A stretch of 64,000 nt of DNA, taken from assembly GCF_003076595.1 (NCBI RefSeq), contig NZ_CP025785.1:464398-528397 (forward strand), written 5' to 3'. This DNA comes from Candidatus Borreliella tachyglossi (GTDB taxonomy: Bacteria; Spirochaetota; Spirochaetia; Borreliales; Borreliaceae). Positions 40,989 through 64,000 of the stretch are shown piece by piece (position 1 is the stretch's first letter; every line of letters starts with the position of its first letter). A program made the translations under genes and the position numbers. The notes beneath the pieces are model-generated. The model worked only from the letters and a program-made list of their open reading frames with translations. It made no database searches and was not told where the DNA came from.

Positions 40989-41495
40989 ATGAATATTACT
41001 AGGATTGAGTTTGTTAAGAATTGTATATTTATTTCTGTTTTTGTATTTTTTGATCAACTATCCAAGTATTTCATTGTTCAACATGTTGAGATTGGCTCTG
41101 AATATTTATCTTTTTTTGGGGATTTTTTTAAAATAATACATGTTAGAAATACTGGGATTTTGTTCTCAATGGGCTCTAATATTGGATCTAGTTTGAAAAG
41201 TCTATTTTTTCTTATAATACCTATTATTATTTTAGTTTTTGTTTTTTATTTTTCTTTAAATGAAAAGAATAGAATGGCCAAGATTTCTCTTTTATTAATT
41301 TTATCTGGTGGTATTGGAAATATTATTGATAGACTGCTTAGGCCCTTAGGAGTTGTAGATTTCTTGGATGTAAAATTTTTTGGCATCTTTGGGCTCCAGA
41401 GATGGCCAACTTTTAACTTTGCAGACAGTTATGTTGTTGTAGGAATAACTTTATTTATAATTTATGATTTGTTTGCAAAAAACAAAAAGAATTGA
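40989..41495 (+). CDS. lspA: Lipoprotein signal peptidase
   Basis: A 168-residue inner-membrane aspartyl protease that cleaves prolipoprotein signals after lipid attachment. It has four hydrophobic helices, the motif FDQLSKYFI near the start, and the catalytic aspartates in GGIGNIIDRL and FNFADSYVV. Borrelia depends heavily on lipoproteins, several of which are encoded in this window. Confidence 0.95.
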   Translation: MNITRIEFVKNCIFISVFVFFDQLSKYFIVQHVEIGSEYLSFFGDFFKIIHVRNTGILFSMGSNIGSSLKSLFFLIIPIIILVFVFYFSLNEKNRMAKISLLLILSGGIGNIIDRLLRPLGVVDFLDVKFFGIFGLQRWPTFNFADSYVVVGITLFIIYDLFAKNKKN

Positions 41496-41499
41496 ACTT

Positions 41500-41727
41500 A
41501 TGAACATTTTATACTTTATTTTGTGTTCATTAACTAATTTATCTTTAATGTTTTTAATTTTTTTTCTTGAATTTTTTTGTATTGCTAAACTTAATATTAT
41601 TGTCTCTCCTTTTTTTCAGTTTATTTTAGTTTTGTTTATGATTATTATTTCAATTGTGATAAGTTATTTTTTATCTAATATTATTGCAAAAAGTATTATT
41701 TCTAAGTTTTTCAATCTAGATAAATAA
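41500..41727 (+). CDS. Small hydrophobic membrane protein
   Basis: A 75-residue protein consisting mainly of two predicted transmembrane helices (NLSLMFLIFFLEFFCIA and FFQFILVLFMIIISIVISYFL). It starts 4 bases after lspA and ends 12 bases before the next gene. No family recognised; a conserved small gene sits at this spot in B. burgdorferi as I recall. Confidence 0.6.
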   Translation: MNILYFILCSLTNLSLMFLIFFLEFFCIAKLNIIVSPFFQFILVLFMIIISIVISYFLSNIIAKSIISKFFNLDK

Positions 41728-41739
41728 AGAGAGGTTTTG

Positions 41740-42561
41740 GTGGCTTTGCGAGTTTTGGTTACTGGGGAGATTGTAGGCAAGCCCGGTATTATTGTAATAA
41801 AAAATTTTTTGTCTTCTTTTAAATCAAGAAAGAAAATTGATTTTGTAATATCTGGTAATAATTTTACTACGGGACTTAGAGGACTTTGTAAAAGACATGC
41901 ATTCTTACTAAAGAAATATGGCATTGATGTCTTAACCTTAGGAGAAAATGCATTTGCAAGATCTGGGCTGGGTGATGATCTTGATAAATATAATTTCATT
42001 TTAAAACCTCTCAATTGCCCTACCAAATTGAAAGGTTATTCTTATTTTATTTACAATGTTGGTGGTAACAGGCTTACTGTAATTAGGCTTGTTGGACAAA
42101 CAGGTATGACAAAATATAAATTTAATAGTCCTTTTTTTGCTTTTGATTATTTTTATGAAAAGATAAAGTTACATACTAATAATATAGTTGTGCTTTTTGA
42201 TTCAAGCACAACAGCTGAGGTTAATGCTATGTTTTTTTATTTGAAATCTAGAGTTAGTGCTTGTTTGGGTATTGGGAAGAGGATATTGACAGCAGATCTT
42301 AGAACCTTAGATGGTGCTGCGGTTATTACTGATCTTGGTAGAGTTGGTAGTTTGAATAGTGTTATTGGATATGTTCCTGAATTTGAGACAGATAAGTTTT
42401 TAAAAGGGTTTTTAAATAATCGATTTACTGAATCTTGGGAGGGGCTTGGCTTTAATGGTGCTATAGTTGAAATTGGAGATGATGGTAGGGCTGCATTAGT
42501 TGAGGTTGTAAGGGAGTATATCAATTTTAATGATAGTCTCCAGAATAGAAATAATATTTGA
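41740..42561 (+). CDS. YmdB-like protein with degenerate active site
   Basis: A 273-residue relative of the metallophosphoesterase YmdB, whose intact form begins at 63269. The fold landmarks remain: VLVTGEIVGKPG, YGIDVLTLGENAF, and DLGRVGSLNSVIGY, which nearly matches DLGMTGSLNSVIGF in YmdB. The metal ligands do not: GD becomes GE, NGEN becomes SGNN, GNH becomes GEN, DFHAE becomes FDSST, and GTHTH becomes GIGKR. It is therefore probably not a phosphodiesterase. GTG at 41740 follows AGAGAGG; nearby TTG codons at 41737 and 41746 are alternatives. Confidence 0.8.
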   Translation: MALRVLVTGEIVGKPGIIVIKNFLSSFKSRKKIDFVISGNNFTTGLRGLCKRHAFLLKKYGIDVLTLGENAFARSGLGDDLDKYNFILKPLNCPTKLKGYSYFIYNVGGNRLTVIRLVGQTGMTKYKFNSPFFAFDYFYEKIKLHTNNIVVLFDSSTTAEVNAMFFYLKSRVSACLGIGKRILTADLRTLDGAAVITDLGRVGSLNSVIGYVPEFETDKFLKGFLNNRFTESWEGLGFNGAIVEIGDDGRAALVEVVREYINFNDSLQNRNNI

Positions 42562-42624: not shown

Positions 42625-43905
42625 ATGTATAGCTATCTTGTAGAGGGTGGTTTTAAAATAGGTGGAAAAATAACAGCTAGTGGCAATAAGAATGCGGCTT
42701 TGCCTTGTATTACAGCAGCACTACTTACAGATGAAGAGGTTATTTTGGAAAATATTCCAAATATTAAGGATGTAGAAGTTGTCCTTAGTATTTTAAAGGA
42801 CATAGGCGCTGAAGTTGTAAGGGAAGATGGTATTGTTAAAATTAAGGTTTTAAATATTACTAAAACTGAGATGAATTCTTCCTTAACGGATTTAATTAGA
42901 GCTTCTATTTTGTTTGTGGGTCCTATTCTTGCTAGATGTGGCAAGATTGATCTTGCGCCTCCTGGTGGGGATGTCATTGGGAAAAGGCGCCTTGATACTC
43001 ATTTTTATGGACTTGGTAAGCTTGGTGCTAGATTAATAGATAGCAAACGGATTGTTTTAGAAGTGGATAAATTGATTGGAGCTACAATGTTTTTAGATGA
43101 AGCATCAGTTACTGCTACTGAAAGTATTGTTATGGCTGCTGTTCTTGCTTTTGGTGAGACCGTGATAATGAATGCTGCATGTGAACCGCATGTACAGGAT
43201 TTGTGTAATATGTTGAATTCTATGGGTGCTAATATTACGGGCATTGGTTCTAACATTATTAAAATAATAGGTGTTAGAAAATTGAGTGGGACTAGGTTTC
43301 AAATAGGGGCTGATTTTATGCAGGTAGGATCTCTGGTTAGCCTTTCTGCATTGACAGGGGGTGAACTTGAGGTTAACAGAGCTGATCCTCAACATTTTAC
43401 TTTAATAAGGCATGTATATGCAAAACTTGGCATTAATTTTGAGTGTGACGAAGAAAATATATACGTTAAGGGAAAGCAAGATTTAAAGGTAAGATTAGAT
43501 TTTGGAGGACATATTCCTAAGATTGATGACGGTCCGTGGCCAGCTTTTCCAACAGATCTTATGAGTATAATGATAGTAACTGCTACTCAAGTTAGCGGAA
43601 CTGTTCTTGTTTTTGAAAAAATGTTTGAATCGAGATTGTTTTTTGTAGATAAGCTTATAAAAATGGGTGCTCAGATTGTTCTTTGTGATCCCCATCGTGC
43701 GGTAATTACAGGAAAAACACTTCTTAAGGGAGATGTTTTATCTTCTCCTGACGTTAGGGCTGGTATGTCTTTACTTATTGCAGCTCTTTGTGCTCAGGGG
43801 GAAAGTAGAATTCAAAATGTTTATCAGATTGAGAGAGGATATGAGGAAGTTGTCGATAAATTAACTAGCTTGGGAGCAAAAATCAAGCGAGTGAGAGAAA
43901 AATAG
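42625..43905 (+). CDS. murA: UDP-N-acetylglucosamine 1-carboxyvinyltransferase (Asp116 form)
   Basis: A 426-residue enzyme that adds enolpyruvate from PEP to UDP-GlcNAc, the first committed step of peptidoglycan. It has GGKITASGNKNAALP at the N-terminus with the catalytic Lys, LDTHFYGL and RADPQHFTLIRH in the middle, and the PEP-binding arginine near DVRAGMSLL. The residue matching the catalytic Cys115 of E. coli is Asp116 (PGGDVIGKRRLD), a change known to block fosfomycin. Confidence 0.97.
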   Translation: MYSYLVEGGFKIGGKITASGNKNAALPCITAALLTDEEVILENIPNIKDVEVVLSILKDIGAEVVREDGIVKIKVLNITKTEMNSSLTDLIRASILFVGPILARCGKIDLAPPGGDVIGKRRLDTHFYGLGKLGARLIDSKRIVLEVDKLIGATMFLDEASVTATESIVMAAVLAFGETVIMNAACEPHVQDLCNMLNSMGANITGIGSNIIKIIGVRKLSGTRFQIGADFMQVGSLVSLSALTGGELEVNRADPQHFTLIRHVYAKLGINFECDEENIYVKGKQDLKVRLDFGGHIPKIDDGPWPAFPTDLMSIMIVTATQVSGTVLVFEKMFESRLFFVDKLIKMGAQIVLCDPHRAVITGKTLLKGDVLSSPDVRAGMSLLIAALCAQGESRIQNVYQIERGYEEVVDKLTSLGAKIKRVREK

Positions 43906-43943: not shown

Positions 43944-45087
43944 TTGGTATCAAAACAAGTCAAGTTAGGAGAATTAATTATTACTGAAAACATGTATAAA
44001 ATAATTTTTGTGATTGCCTTACCTTTGGTTATTACTAATATTATTCAGGTTCTCTATGAATTTATTGATATGTTTTATTTTGGAAATCTTGGTGCTATGG
44101 CTCTTGTTGCAAGGGCATATTGATTTATCTTATTATGTCTTTGGGTATGGGTATAGATGTGGGTAGTATATCTTAAGCTAGGAATTTTGGCGATGCTAAT
44201 TATAAGAAAATTTCTAAGTATTCAGGACAACTATTAACATTAAGTTTTATTATTTCTGTATTGGTTGCTGTGTTGGTATTTATTTTTGTTGGTTCTATTT
44301 TGGAGCATGTTGGAGCAACTGGAGAAATTAAAGATTATGTTAAACGGTATTTTTCTATATCTATTTATGGAATTCCTGTTATGTTTTTAAGCATGTCTAT
44401 TGTGTTTATAATTAATACAATAGGATCTATAGCTATTTCAATGGAATTGTTTTAATTGCAAATGTTTTTAACTTTATTCTTGGTTCAATTTTAATGTTTA
44501 CTTTTGATTTGGGTATTTCAGGAGTTGATTGGACTACTCTTTTTTCAAAGCTGATTACTGTTGTAAGTTATCCCATTGTGGCTTTTGGTTTTGATAAAGG
44601 TTTTAAAATTTATGTTAAAGATTTGATTCCTGATTTTAAGTATCTAATCCAGATGCTTAAAGTGGACATACTTGGGCTTTGGGTCGCAGGTTATGATATC
44701 TTTTCCTTTCCTGGGTTTTAATGTATTTATTGTGACAGTTGGGATTAACTTTTTTGGCTGAATATGTCATTTCCCATATTCTAGATGCATTTTTGTATTT
44801 CCCTGCGATGGCTTTCAGAGCTGCTCTATCTTCTATAATCGGACAAAATCTTGATGCAAACAAAGTAAAGAGAAGCTGGGATGGCTAATATAGTAATTAT
44901 TGTGACCTTCGTTAAATTGTGGCTTGTTGCAAGCCTAATATGTTAGTTCTTAGTTATTTTGATATAATTTTGAGTATATTTGGGTATTTGCTCTGATTCT
45001 ACATTATTTTGGATTCTTTGTTACTTTAGTTGTTGTTATTAGTGGTACTTGGAAGAAGAGAAGTTGTAATACTCTATTTTATTTGTA
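43944..45087 (+). pseudogene. Decayed MATE efflux gene, upstream copy
   Basis: A TTG start at 43944 with AAAGGA before it opens a frame that matches the intact MATE gene at 45168 residue by residue (NIIQVLYEFIDMFY against NIIQALYEVIDMFY) until a TGA at 44121. Homology then continues in changing frames: GIPVMFLSMSIVFIIN near 44370, FTFDLGISGVDWTTLFSKL near 44497, SSIIGQNLDANK near 44830, ANIVIIVTFVKLW near 44890. There are several stops and frameshifts and one internal deletion of about 60 codons. It arose by tandem duplication and no longer makes a full protein. Confidence 0.88.
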
Positions 45088-45167
45088 GTTTAAAATCAAA
45101 TAAGAAAATTTATTTTTTATAAAGCTTTACAGTTCAATAAATATAATGAATGAAGGGTAAGATTCGG

Positions 45168-46514
45168 ATGTTAAGTAGCAATACTAAAACTAGAAAGTTA
45201 ATATTAGAAGGAAATTTATATAAAGTTTTTTTGGTCATCAGTTTGCCTATCATGGTCAGCAATATTATTCAGGCTCTCTATGAGGTTATTGATATGTTTT
45301 ATGTTGGGAAGCTCGGTGCTATGGCTCTTGCTGCACTGTCTTTGACTGGGCCTATTAATTTTCTTATTATGGTTCTTGCCATGGGGATGGCTACAGGAAG
45401 TATTTCATTGATGTCTAAATGTATTGGAGAAGGGGCTTTTTCAAAGTTTTCAAGATATGCAGGGCAATTGGTGTTTTTAAATTTCATCTTATCTTTATTT
45501 GTTACAATTTTTATTTTGATATTTATAGATTTTATTTTAGATTTTTTGGTTGTAAGAGGCGAACTTAAAGAGCTTGCGAAGTCTTATCTTTATGTCACAA
45601 TATGTGCGATACCTGTAATGTTTTTGAGTATTTCTATTATATACATATTAAATTCTCAAGGAGAGACCATTATTTCGATGATGATAGTTTTAATTGCCAA
45701 TATTATTAACTTTATTCTTGATCCAATTTTAATGTTTACTTTTAATCTAGGTATTGCCGGTGCTGCTTGGGCTACTCTTTTTTCAAAGTTAACAACTGTT
45801 TTTTCTTATTTGTTTTTAACTTATAGGTTAAATCGTGGACTTAAGCTGGGTTTGAAAGATATTACTCCAGATATTACTATGATAAGAAATATTTTAAGTT
45901 TAGGGCTTCCATCAGCTTTTGGTCAGATGATGATTTCTATTTCTTTTTTAATTTTTAATTACTTTGTAATTAGAATAAGTCCAAAATTTTTAGCTGCTTA
46001 TGGTCTTACAAATAGCATTATTGCCTTTTTGCTTCTTCCTGGAATGAGCATTGGTACTGGAATTATTTCAATTGTTGGACAAAATCTCGGTGCAAAGAAT
46101 ATTGCTAGAGTGGGAGATGCTTTAAAGAAAGGATTTTTTGTTTCCTTGGTGGTATTGTTTACGGTTAATTCATTCATAATATTTTTTAGAGAAGTTATAA
46201 TAAGAGTTTTTACAGATGATTTAGAAGTTATAAATTATGCTAATAATTATTTATTATTGGCATCAATTGGGGCTGTTGGATATGGATTGCAACAGGGGTT
46301 TTTTGGAGGATTGATTGGAGCAGGACTTACAAACCTTGTCATGATTCTTGTTTGTATACGCCTTTGGATTATTCGTTTGCCGGCTGTAATTGTCTTTCAA
46401 TATTTTGGTATTATGGAGGATTCTTTGGGGTATGCCTTTATAATTTCAAATTATGTAACCTTTATTATTTTATTGTGTTTGACTTTTACGAAATATTGGG
46501 AAAAGCCACAGTAG
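45168..46514 (+). CDS. MATE-family multidrug/cation efflux protein
   Basis: A 448-residue transporter with about twelve membrane helices in two related halves: SNIIQALYEVIDMFYVGKLGAMALAAL at the start of the first and FGQMMISISFLIFNYF then IISIVGQNLGAKN in the second. It would expel organic cations in exchange for sodium or protons. I chose the ATG at 45168 because the start of the neighbouring decayed copy aligns with it; an ATG 18 bases upstream is also in frame. Confidence 0.9.
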   Translation: MLSSNTKTRKLILEGNLYKVFLVISLPIMVSNIIQALYEVIDMFYVGKLGAMALAALSLTGPINFLIMVLAMGMATGSISLMSKCIGEGAFSKFSRYAGQLVFLNFILSLFVTIFILIFIDFILDFLVVRGELKELAKSYLYVTICAIPVMFLSISIIYILNSQGETIISMMIVLIANIINFILDPILMFTFNLGIAGAAWATLFSKLTTVFSYLFLTYRLNRGLKLGLKDITPDITMIRNILSLGLPSAFGQMMISISFLIFNYFVIRISPKFLAAYGLTNSIIAFLLLPGMSIGTGIISIVGQNLGAKNIARVGDALKKGFFVSLVVLFTVNSFIIFFREVIIRVFTDDLEVINYANNYLLLASIGAVGYGLQQGFFGGLIGAGLTNLVMILVCIRLWIIRLPAVIVFQYFGIMEDSLGYAFIISNYVTFIILLCLTFTKYWEKPQ

Positions 46515-61746: not shown

Positions 61747-63279
61747 ATGCTATATATTATTTCTTCTTCTATTCTTGCTGGCGTTATATTAGGGTTTGCG
61801 ATAAGGATTATTTTAAGTAGATTTTCTTTATTAAATTTAGATAAAAAGCTAAAAAAAGTAAAAGAGGAAGCAGTCTTAGAGATAGAAAATGAGAAAAAGC
61901 AAATTATTTCGAATGCAAAAGCTCAAATGCTTAAAGATAAAAACCAGCAAGATAGGGAGATAAGAGAGCGAAAAAATGAAGTTTTTAATATAGAACGAAG
62001 GCTATTACAAAGGGAAGAAACTTTAGATAAGAGAATGTCGGCTCTTGATAAGCAACAAAATAGAATTGATTTTAAGCTTAAGGAATTTGAACAAAAAGAA
62101 AAAACAATAAGAGATAAGGAAATATCTCTTATTAAGAAGTTGGAAAGTATTTCTGGTCTTACAAAAGAAGAAGCAAAAAAAATTGTAATTGAGAAGATTG
62201 AAAATGAAGCTAAAAGAGATGCACAAGTAATTATTAATAAAAGCGAGCAAGAAGCTCAGCTTTTAGCAGATAAGGTGTCAAAGGATATATTGGTTTCTAC
62301 TATGCAACGCATAGTAACAGAGGTTAGTTCTGAGTTTACTATTGCTTCTGTTGAACTGCCTAATGATGAGATGAAGGGTAGAATAATCGGTAAAGAAGGG
62401 CGTAACATTAGGGTTCTTGAAACATTAATAGGTGCAGATATTATTATTGACGATACTCCTGAAGCTGTTGTTATATCTTGTTTTGATCCAGTGAGAAAGG
62501 AGATAGCTAAGAGAACTCTTGAGAGACTTATTACAGATGGAAGAATCCATCCCGCAAGAATTGAGGAAGTTGTATACAGCGTTACTAATGAGATTAATAA
62601 TATTATTCTTGAGGAAGGCGAGAAGGTAGTATTTGATTTAAATATTCATGGCCTTGACAAGAGGCTTATTAGAGGTCTTGGAAGACTATACTTTAGGAGT
62701 AGTTATGGTCAGAATGTTTTAAGCCATTCAAAGGAGACGGCAATAATAGGAGAAATTTTAGCTAAGGAGATGAAGCTGGATCCTGTTGTCGTAAAGCGTG
62801 CGTGCCTTTTGCACGATATTGGTAAGGGGATGGAAAGTATTTCCGAAAATAGCGAAGGACATGCTATTACGGGTGCTGAACTTGCTCAGAGTTGTGGCGA
62901 GAGCGATATTGTTGTTAATGCCATTGCTGCCCATCATAATGAAATAAAACCCGAAAGCATTGAGGCTATTGTTGTTCAGATAGCTGATGCTATTTCCGCA
63001 TCTCGTCCTGGCGCGAGACGTGAGAGTCTTAATAACTATATAAATAGACTTAAGAGACTGGAAGAGATTGCTTATAGCTTTGAGGGTGTTCAGAAATGTT
63101 ATGCAATTCAGGCAGGCCGTGAAGTTAGGATTATTGTTGACAATTTATTAGTTAATGACGAGAAAGCTACTATGCTTGCAAGAGACATTGCAAAGAAAAT
63201 AGAAGCTGAAATGAGATATCCAGGTAAAATAAAAGTTACTATTATTCGTGAGACTAGAGTTATTGAATATGCACGATAG
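61747..63279 (+). CDS. rny: Ribonuclease Y
   Basis: A 510-residue membrane-tethered endoribonuclease that starts mRNA decay. It has an N-terminal membrane helix (LYIISSSILAGVILGFAI), a long coiled coil to about residue 195, a KH domain (MKGRIIGKEGRNIRVLETLIG), and an HD domain with the metal ligands in RACLLHDIGKG and AIAAHHNE. The ATG at 61747 has GGAGGC upstream. ymdB starts inside its last codons. Confidence 0.96.
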   Translation: MLYIISSSILAGVILGFAIRIILSRFSLLNLDKKLKKVKEEAVLEIENEKKQIISNAKAQMLKDKNQQDREIRERKNEVFNIERRLLQREETLDKRMSALDKQQNRIDFKLKEFEQKEKTIRDKEISLIKKLESISGLTKEEAKKIVIEKIENEAKRDAQVIINKSEQEAQLLADKVSKDILVSTMQRIVTEVSSEFTIASVELPNDEMKGRIIGKEGRNIRVLETLIGADIIIDDTPEAVVISCFDPVRKEIAKRTLERLITDGRIHPARIEEVVYSVTNEINNIILEEGEKVVFDLNIHGLDKRLIRGLGRLYFRSSYGQNVLSHSKETAIIGEILAKEMKLDPVVVKRACLLHDIGKGMESISENSEGHAITGAELAQSCGESDIVVNAIAAHHNEIKPESIEAIVVQIADAISASRPGARRESLNNYINRLKRLEEIAYSFEGVQKCYAIQAGREVRIIVDNLLVNDEKATMLARDIAKKIEAEMRYPGKIKVTIIRETRVIEYAR

Positions 63280-64000
63280 TGGCGTTATCAAGACTTTGAT
63301 GATTGGAGATATAATAGGTGATGCGGGACTTAAAAAGGTTTTTTTTAATCTTAAGAGCCTTAAGAATAAATATAATATAGATCTTACAATTGTTAATGGA
63401 GAAAATTCATCGGGGGGATTTGGAATTACTCCAGAGATAGCAGACAATCTTTTTAGAGCTGGCGTGAATGTTATTACTACAGGTAATCATGTTTATGCTA
63501 ATAATAGTATAAAAGAATATTTAAACAAGCAGGAGTATATTTTAAGACCAAATAATTTTTCAGATTTGCTTGAGGGTCATGGGTATTGTGTTTTAAATGT
63601 TAGAAATGAAAAAGTGGCTGTTATTAATATTCAAGGATTTTTAGGGATGACTTTTATTGTTAAGAATCCTTTTGAGAATGTAAAAAAATTTGTGAATATG
63701 ATTGGCATTAAGGTTAAAACCATTTTCGTTGATTTTCATGCTGAGAGTAATTATGAGAAAGAAAGTTTTGGATATTTTTTGGATGGATTTGTAACAGGGG
63801 TTGTTGGTACTCATACGCATATAATGACTCAGGATGAAAGGATTTTAGAGAAGGGTACTGCTTATATTAGCGATCTTGGCATGACTGGTAGTCTGAATTC
63901 TGTTATAGGATTTAGTCCTGAAATTTCTCTTAAAGGGTTGCTTGAATATACATCTTTGCGAACAGAAGTTGTTGAAGAGAATGTTGTTGTACAAGGAGTA
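63269..64000 (+). CDS. ymdB: YmdB-family metallophosphoesterase, 3' end beyond the window
   Basis: 244 codons are readable and open at the end of the window. All catalytic motifs of YmdB are intact: MIGDIIGDAG, NGENSSGG, TGNHVYAN, VDFHAESNYEK and GTHTHIMTQDE. The family includes cyclic-nucleotide phosphodiesterases, and YmdB interacts with RNase Y in Bacillus. It overlaps the rny stop by 11 bases. Confidence 0.95.
   Translation, partial: MHDSGVIKTLMIGDIIGDAGLKKVFFNLKSLKNKYNIDLTIVNGENSSGGFGITPEIADNLFRAGVNVITTGNHVYANNSIKEYLNKQEYILRPNNFSDLLEGHGYCVLNVRNEKVAVINIQGFLGMTFIVKNPFENVKKFVNMIGIKVKTIFVDFHAESNYEKESFGYFLDGFVTGVVGTHTHIMTQDERILEKGTAYISDLGMTGSLNSVIGFSPEISLKGLLEYTSLRTEVVEENVVVQGV

Follow-up and report, generated by a model that had tools for sequence, protein, structure and literature searches.

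YmdB of Bacillus subtilis holds two Fe(II) ions through Asp8, Glu39, Asn40, Asn67, His150, His175 and His177, of which Asp8 and His177 serve the second metal; the catalytic residues are His68 and Asp71 (PMC10406935). The lasso-peptide epimerase MslH, a Ca(II)-dependent enzyme whose fold is related to that of YmdB, is a precedent for a YmdB-like fold in which the second metal was dropped and the function changed (PMC10406935). The spirochaete paralogue described here resembles the YmdB proteins of B. subtilis (4B2O), Deinococcus (1T70), Mycoplasma (1T71) and Thermus (TTHA0625, 2CV9) in its predicted full-length fold, its length and a SLNSVIG-type region. It differs from them in a signature of Glu8, acid 67 and Lys/Arg177 that runs through the whole class, in the replacement of all eight metal-site positions in Borreliaceae, in a score below the TIGR00282 cut-off and in a genomic position that does not adjoin rny. 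Compared with MslH, whose single-metal positions most paralogues of the class keep, it lacks the His/Asp catalytic pair, and in Borreliaceae the metal ligands are absent as well.

By gene order and name, the paralogue is the same gene as BB_0471 / BT0471, in which a one-residue indel serves as a taxonomic marker; the entry for this marker gives "hypothetical protein" only, without a function or a relationship to YmdB (PMC6711536). The literature that we searched, which included few subscription papers, held nothing on the function of BB0471 or on a YmdB paralogue of spirochaetes, and nothing on function under metallophosphoesterase pseudoenzymes. Calcineurin-like folds without catalytic ligands, kept for partner binding, occur in VPS29 and in the B subunits of eukaryotic DNA polymerases; these do not belong to the YmdB family, and their partners and context are unrelated to those of the paralogue.

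The paralogue and its replaced metal site

The window, by which we mean the whole stretch of 64,000 nucleotides of Candidatus Borreliella tachyglossi that was analysed, contains the paralogue as a BB_0471-type gene of 273 amino acids (41740..42561, + strand). It starts with GTG, and a TTG three bases before it is also a possible start. The gene order on the + strand is lspA (40989..41495), orf87 (41464..41727), paralogue and murA (42625..43905), the products of lspA and murA being named from the sequence; the original prediction had placed the paralogue in an lspA-murA block, which this order bears out. The small membrane protein encoded by orf87 apparently has two helices, a count read from the sequence, and its frame as listed overlaps the end of lspA. 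It adjoins the paralogue directly upstream in all 36 Borreliaceae, and no family match was found for it. Upstream of the paralogue block lie LptC-, LptA-, LptB-like, YfiH-type and Nif3-type genes, whose products were likewise read from the sequence. On the other side, between murA and an intact copy (45150-46514), lies a disrupted remnant of a second MATE-type transporter gene (43944-44888), the first piece of which, 59 amino acids long, shares 57% identity with the protein of the intact copy over 56 amino acids. The canonical ymdB (63269..64000, + strand) runs off the window and is directly preceded by rny, encoding RNase Y (61747..63279, + strand; one TIGR03319 match in the genome), about 19 kb from the paralogue.

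The paralogue is a full-length YmdB-family protein. It matched the Pfam YmdB profile PF13277 over positions 1-250 of 253 with 196 bits (cut-off 27), and BLASTP aligned it to the canonical YmdB of the window with 32% identity over 225 amino acids (E 9e-33), the SLNSVIG motif being common to both. The AlphaFold2 model reached a mean pLDDT of 92.7 with 60 aligned sequences, some of which were canonical YmdB rows, so that the predicted fold depends in part on them. In the PDB, this model was matched best by the four YmdB structures, with TM scores of 0.87-0.90 (0.90 for 4B2O) and structure-aligned identities of 26-30%. The YmdB fold and the SLNSVIG region had already been noticed as kept, and profile, predicted fold and BLASTP agree on this. 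Against the TIGR00282 metallophosphoesterase equivalog, the paralogue scored 137 bits, below the cut-off of 254 and thus outside this group, compared with 346 bits for the canonical protein of the window. The paralogue would add a variant to the YmdB family, one that has the predicted fold and the family profile and lacks the residues of the catalytic set.

When aligned to B. subtilis YmdB, positions D8, E39, N40, N67, H68, H150, H175 and H177 read E, N, F, E, N, D, G and R in the paralogue; in the same alignment, the canonical YmdB of the window retains all eight. The replacement of D8, E39, N67, H68 and the three later histidines, predicted at first from a comparison of the two genes of the window, is thereby confirmed. 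In codons, all on the + strand, the second-metal ligand D8 is replaced by E10 (41767..41769), a conservative change that is invariant in 36 Borreliaceae, and E39-N40 by N41-F42 (41860..41865). The metal ligand N67 and the catalytic H68 are replaced by E69-N70 (41944..41949), H150 by D154 (42199..42201), and H175-T-H177 by G179-K180-R181 (42274..42282), with Lys or Arg at the place of H177 in 129 of 129 class members. The seven positions of the dinuclear YmdB ligand set thus read E, N, F, E, D, G and R, the four MslH-like ligand positions (E39, N67, H150 and H175) read N, E, D and G in Borreliaceae, and the H68/D71 catalytic pair is replaced by N70/A73 in the paralogue of the window. Every ligand and His68 are present in 35 of 35 canonical Borreliaceae sequences. 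With E10, E69 and D154 the pocket still has some acidic groups, so that the Borreliaceae paralogue could possibly still bind some metal.

A class-wide clade and the order of ligand loss

Each of the 36 genomes sampled from the order, which represent two genera, carries exactly two PF13277 genes. In the class Spirochaetia, 266 of 297 genomes have a PF13277 match, mostly in two copies, and a profile built from the Borreliaceae copies picks out the second copy across the class. In a tree of 82 proteins the paralogues formed one clade (SH-aLRT 100) with every canonical copy outside. The Borreliaceae copies are nested within this clade, with a stem length of 1.34 changes per site, and a Borrelia-specific duplication was rejected since they fall within the class-wide group. 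Seven copies from related lineages outside Spirochaetia also belong to the clade. GTDB species genomes yielded 207 confirmed relatives, of which the best 80 all carried spirochaete names; a rare occurrence outside the phylum is possible. Judged by sequence, the paralogue is an ancient copy of the whole class Spirochaetia, present in nearly all species sampled.

Some matches needed a closer look. Five genomes (G044, G102, G185, G253 and G037) seemed to hold three copies; a new search showed that the third match was the second piece of a split match. In three loci (L311, L309 and L308, in G044, G102 and G185), the paralogue matches as two pieces inside one frame of 374-543 amino acids, which suggests an inserted segment at about profile position 105.

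Among 129 class members, a set to which some genomes contribute more than one locus, Glu occupies position 8 in 128, all 129 have Glu or Asp at position 67 and Lys or Arg at position 177, and the residues listed include neither His68 nor Asp71. The conserved residues proper to the clade are K19, R198, acid 67 and K/R177. The changes at D8, N67 and H177 each map to a single step at the base of the clade, from which we infer that the second metal and the catalytic pair were given up in its ancestor; these changes predate Borreliaceae and are shared well beyond Borrelia. The first metal site (E/D39, E/D67, H150 and H175) was lost repeatedly, with about nine losses of H175, three of H150 and four of acidic 39 on the tree, Borreliaceae being among the losers. 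The pattern EEHH is found at these four positions in 77 of the 129 members. Most members outside Borreliaceae keep E/D39, H150 and H175, and one metal site may survive in them. The original description of a protein stripped of its metal ligands is therefore apt for Borreliaceae and a few other lineages, but goes too far for most species.

Selection on the former site

The frame of the paralogue is intact in 36 of 36 Borreliaceae. Its median dN/dS was 0.197 over 503 Borreliaceae pairs, estimated by the pairwise Nei-Gojobori method with a custom script; canonical ymdB gave 0.156 by the same method in Borreliaceae. All eight substituted positions are invariant in the 36 sequences (hypergeometric P 0.0013, with neighbour effects ignored). 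In windows extending three residues either side of these positions, pN/pS was 0.115 versus 0.258 elsewhere in the paralogue, and 0.107 versus 0.248 elsewhere when the same windows were placed on the live site of canonical ymdB; the figures are descriptive, related sequences being pooled in them. Circular shifts of the paralogue windows reached an equally low pN in 5 of 260 cases. Selection holds the dead site as tightly as the live one, which favours binding of a ligand or a partner at this place.

The constraint is also what one would expect of a new catalytic activity, in which the clade would have turned the YmdB fold into a single-metal or metal-free enzyme, as in MslH, and Borreliaceae would have modified it further. 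The EEHH residues of 77 of the 129 class members occupy the single-metal positions of MslH (PMC10406935), and the conserved K19, R198, acid 67 and K/R177 are specific to the clade. However, H68 and D71, the catalytic pair of both YmdB and MslH, are gone throughout. The repeated losses of H175 and H150 sit better with a metal that the protein could do without than with one that it needs, and Borreliaceae have lost E39, H150 and H175 and yet remain constrained. We consider such an enzyme somewhat unlikely.

Genomic partners and proposed role

In 31 of the 297 class genomes both PF13277 genes are missing: 27 of these genomes belong to family f24, one (G055) to f21 and three to genus g75 of f26. 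According to a tally made by hand from tables, RNase Y is kept in all 31 and RseC in 24 of them. Genome completeness is 71-88% in g75 and 89% for G055; the joint loss is firm in f24 and probable in g75 and G055. These losses amount to few independent events, mostly in one family (f24), too few for proof. The paralogue disappears with YmdB while RNase Y is always and RseC mostly kept, which would suit a pathway shared with YmdB rather than with RNase Y or RseC, and may indicate YmdB, not RNase Y, as the partner. Of the two partners first guessed for the paralogue, YmdB thus gains indirect support from joint gene loss and RNase Y, kept in 31 of 31 genomes, gains none. One genome, G066 (95% complete), has the paralogue without canonical YmdB, an exception that bears on the YmdB-partner hypothesis. 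Seven single-copy genomes were checked, most of them fragmented assemblies: G066, G116 and G138 had only the paralogue, and G071, G131, G145 and G152 only the canonical gene.

Outside Borreliaceae, an rseC-like gene lies directly downstream of the paralogue on the same strand in 93 of the 126 loci with enough sequence, its identity as PF04246 being confirmed on five examples. This arrangement would suit a cytoplasmic protein working with RseC in a redox or RNF-linked membrane system; Borreliaceae would have kept the paralogue for another use after RseC was lost. But Borreliaceae have the paralogue and no PF04246 protein was found in them, and RseC persists in 24 of the 31 genomes without the paralogue; the two are therefore not obligate partners, and we judge this role quite unlikely. 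We also rejected the idea that orf87 is a shrunken RseC, as even the best hit of a profile search in maximum-sensitivity mode was not significant (E 0.16). In many spirochaetes, the paralogue is surrounded by a block of cheB-cheR (on the opposite strand), pyrG, lptC, lptA and lptB (L182-L201; products partly read from the sequence), and lpt-like genes also lie upstream of lspA in the window.

A competitor or regulator of RNase Y itself would agree with the adjacency of canonical ymdB and rny in the window and with the link between YmdB and RNase Y proposed in B. subtilis (PMC6123443). However, about 19 kb separate the paralogue from rny in the window, and the 31 genomes with neither PF13277 gene all keep rny; there is no support for RNase Y as its partner, and this role is improbable. 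A decaying ymdB copy without present function, which the loss of all catalytic ligands and the long Borreliaceae stem might suggest, is scarcely credible given open frames in 36 of 36 Borreliaceae, a dN/dS of 0.20, a former site among the most constrained parts of the protein and a genomic place that is constant throughout. The original prediction had argued against decay and named relaxed selection as the test; relaxation was looked for in dN/dS and in the pN/pS windows and was absent, so that decay is refuted as far as sequence allows.

The paralogue thus probably has a function as a non-catalytic partner and is unlikely to be a dying gene. On this basis, we propose, with a probability of about 0.5, that it is a pseudo-phosphodiesterase partner of YmdB and the Borreliaceae member of an ancient spirochaete clade. 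This clade would have given up the phosphodiesterase chemistry of YmdB and retained the fold together with a highly constrained pocket. In its ancestor, an ion pair of Lys/Arg177 with Glu8 and acid 67 would have replaced the second metal, and the catalytic His68/Asp71 pair would have been dropped. One metal may still be bound through E/D39, E/D67, H150 and H175 in most spirochaetes; Borreliaceae would have lost this site later. The non-catalytic paralogue may bind a YmdB-type phosphodiester or nucleotide ligand, or join YmdB in a mixed oligomer, and would thereby set the activity, the specificity or the cellular place of YmdB. It may tie YmdB control to the membrane protein RseC in other spirochaetes, and is possibly tied to orf87 in Borreliaceae. 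We put forward only tentatively the complete scheme, a class-wide YmdB pseudoenzyme that uses a Lys/Arg-Glu ion pair in place of a metal and forms a regulatory pair with YmdB, with a membrane link through RseC in most species. If it is true, spirochaetes have a two-part phosphodiesterase switch that is not known elsewhere.

YmdB is an enzyme whose physiological substrate remains to be found (PMC6123443). A paralogue with replaced chemistry, a kept pocket and joint loss with YmdB would offer a handle on the ligand and the pathway of this enzyme. One ligand pair went in a single step at the root of the clade and the other has been worn away several times over, and this stepwise history would make a clean case of the passage from metalloenzyme to pseudoenzyme. 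In Borreliaceae, a protein so far described only as hypothetical has been conserved through strong genome reduction.
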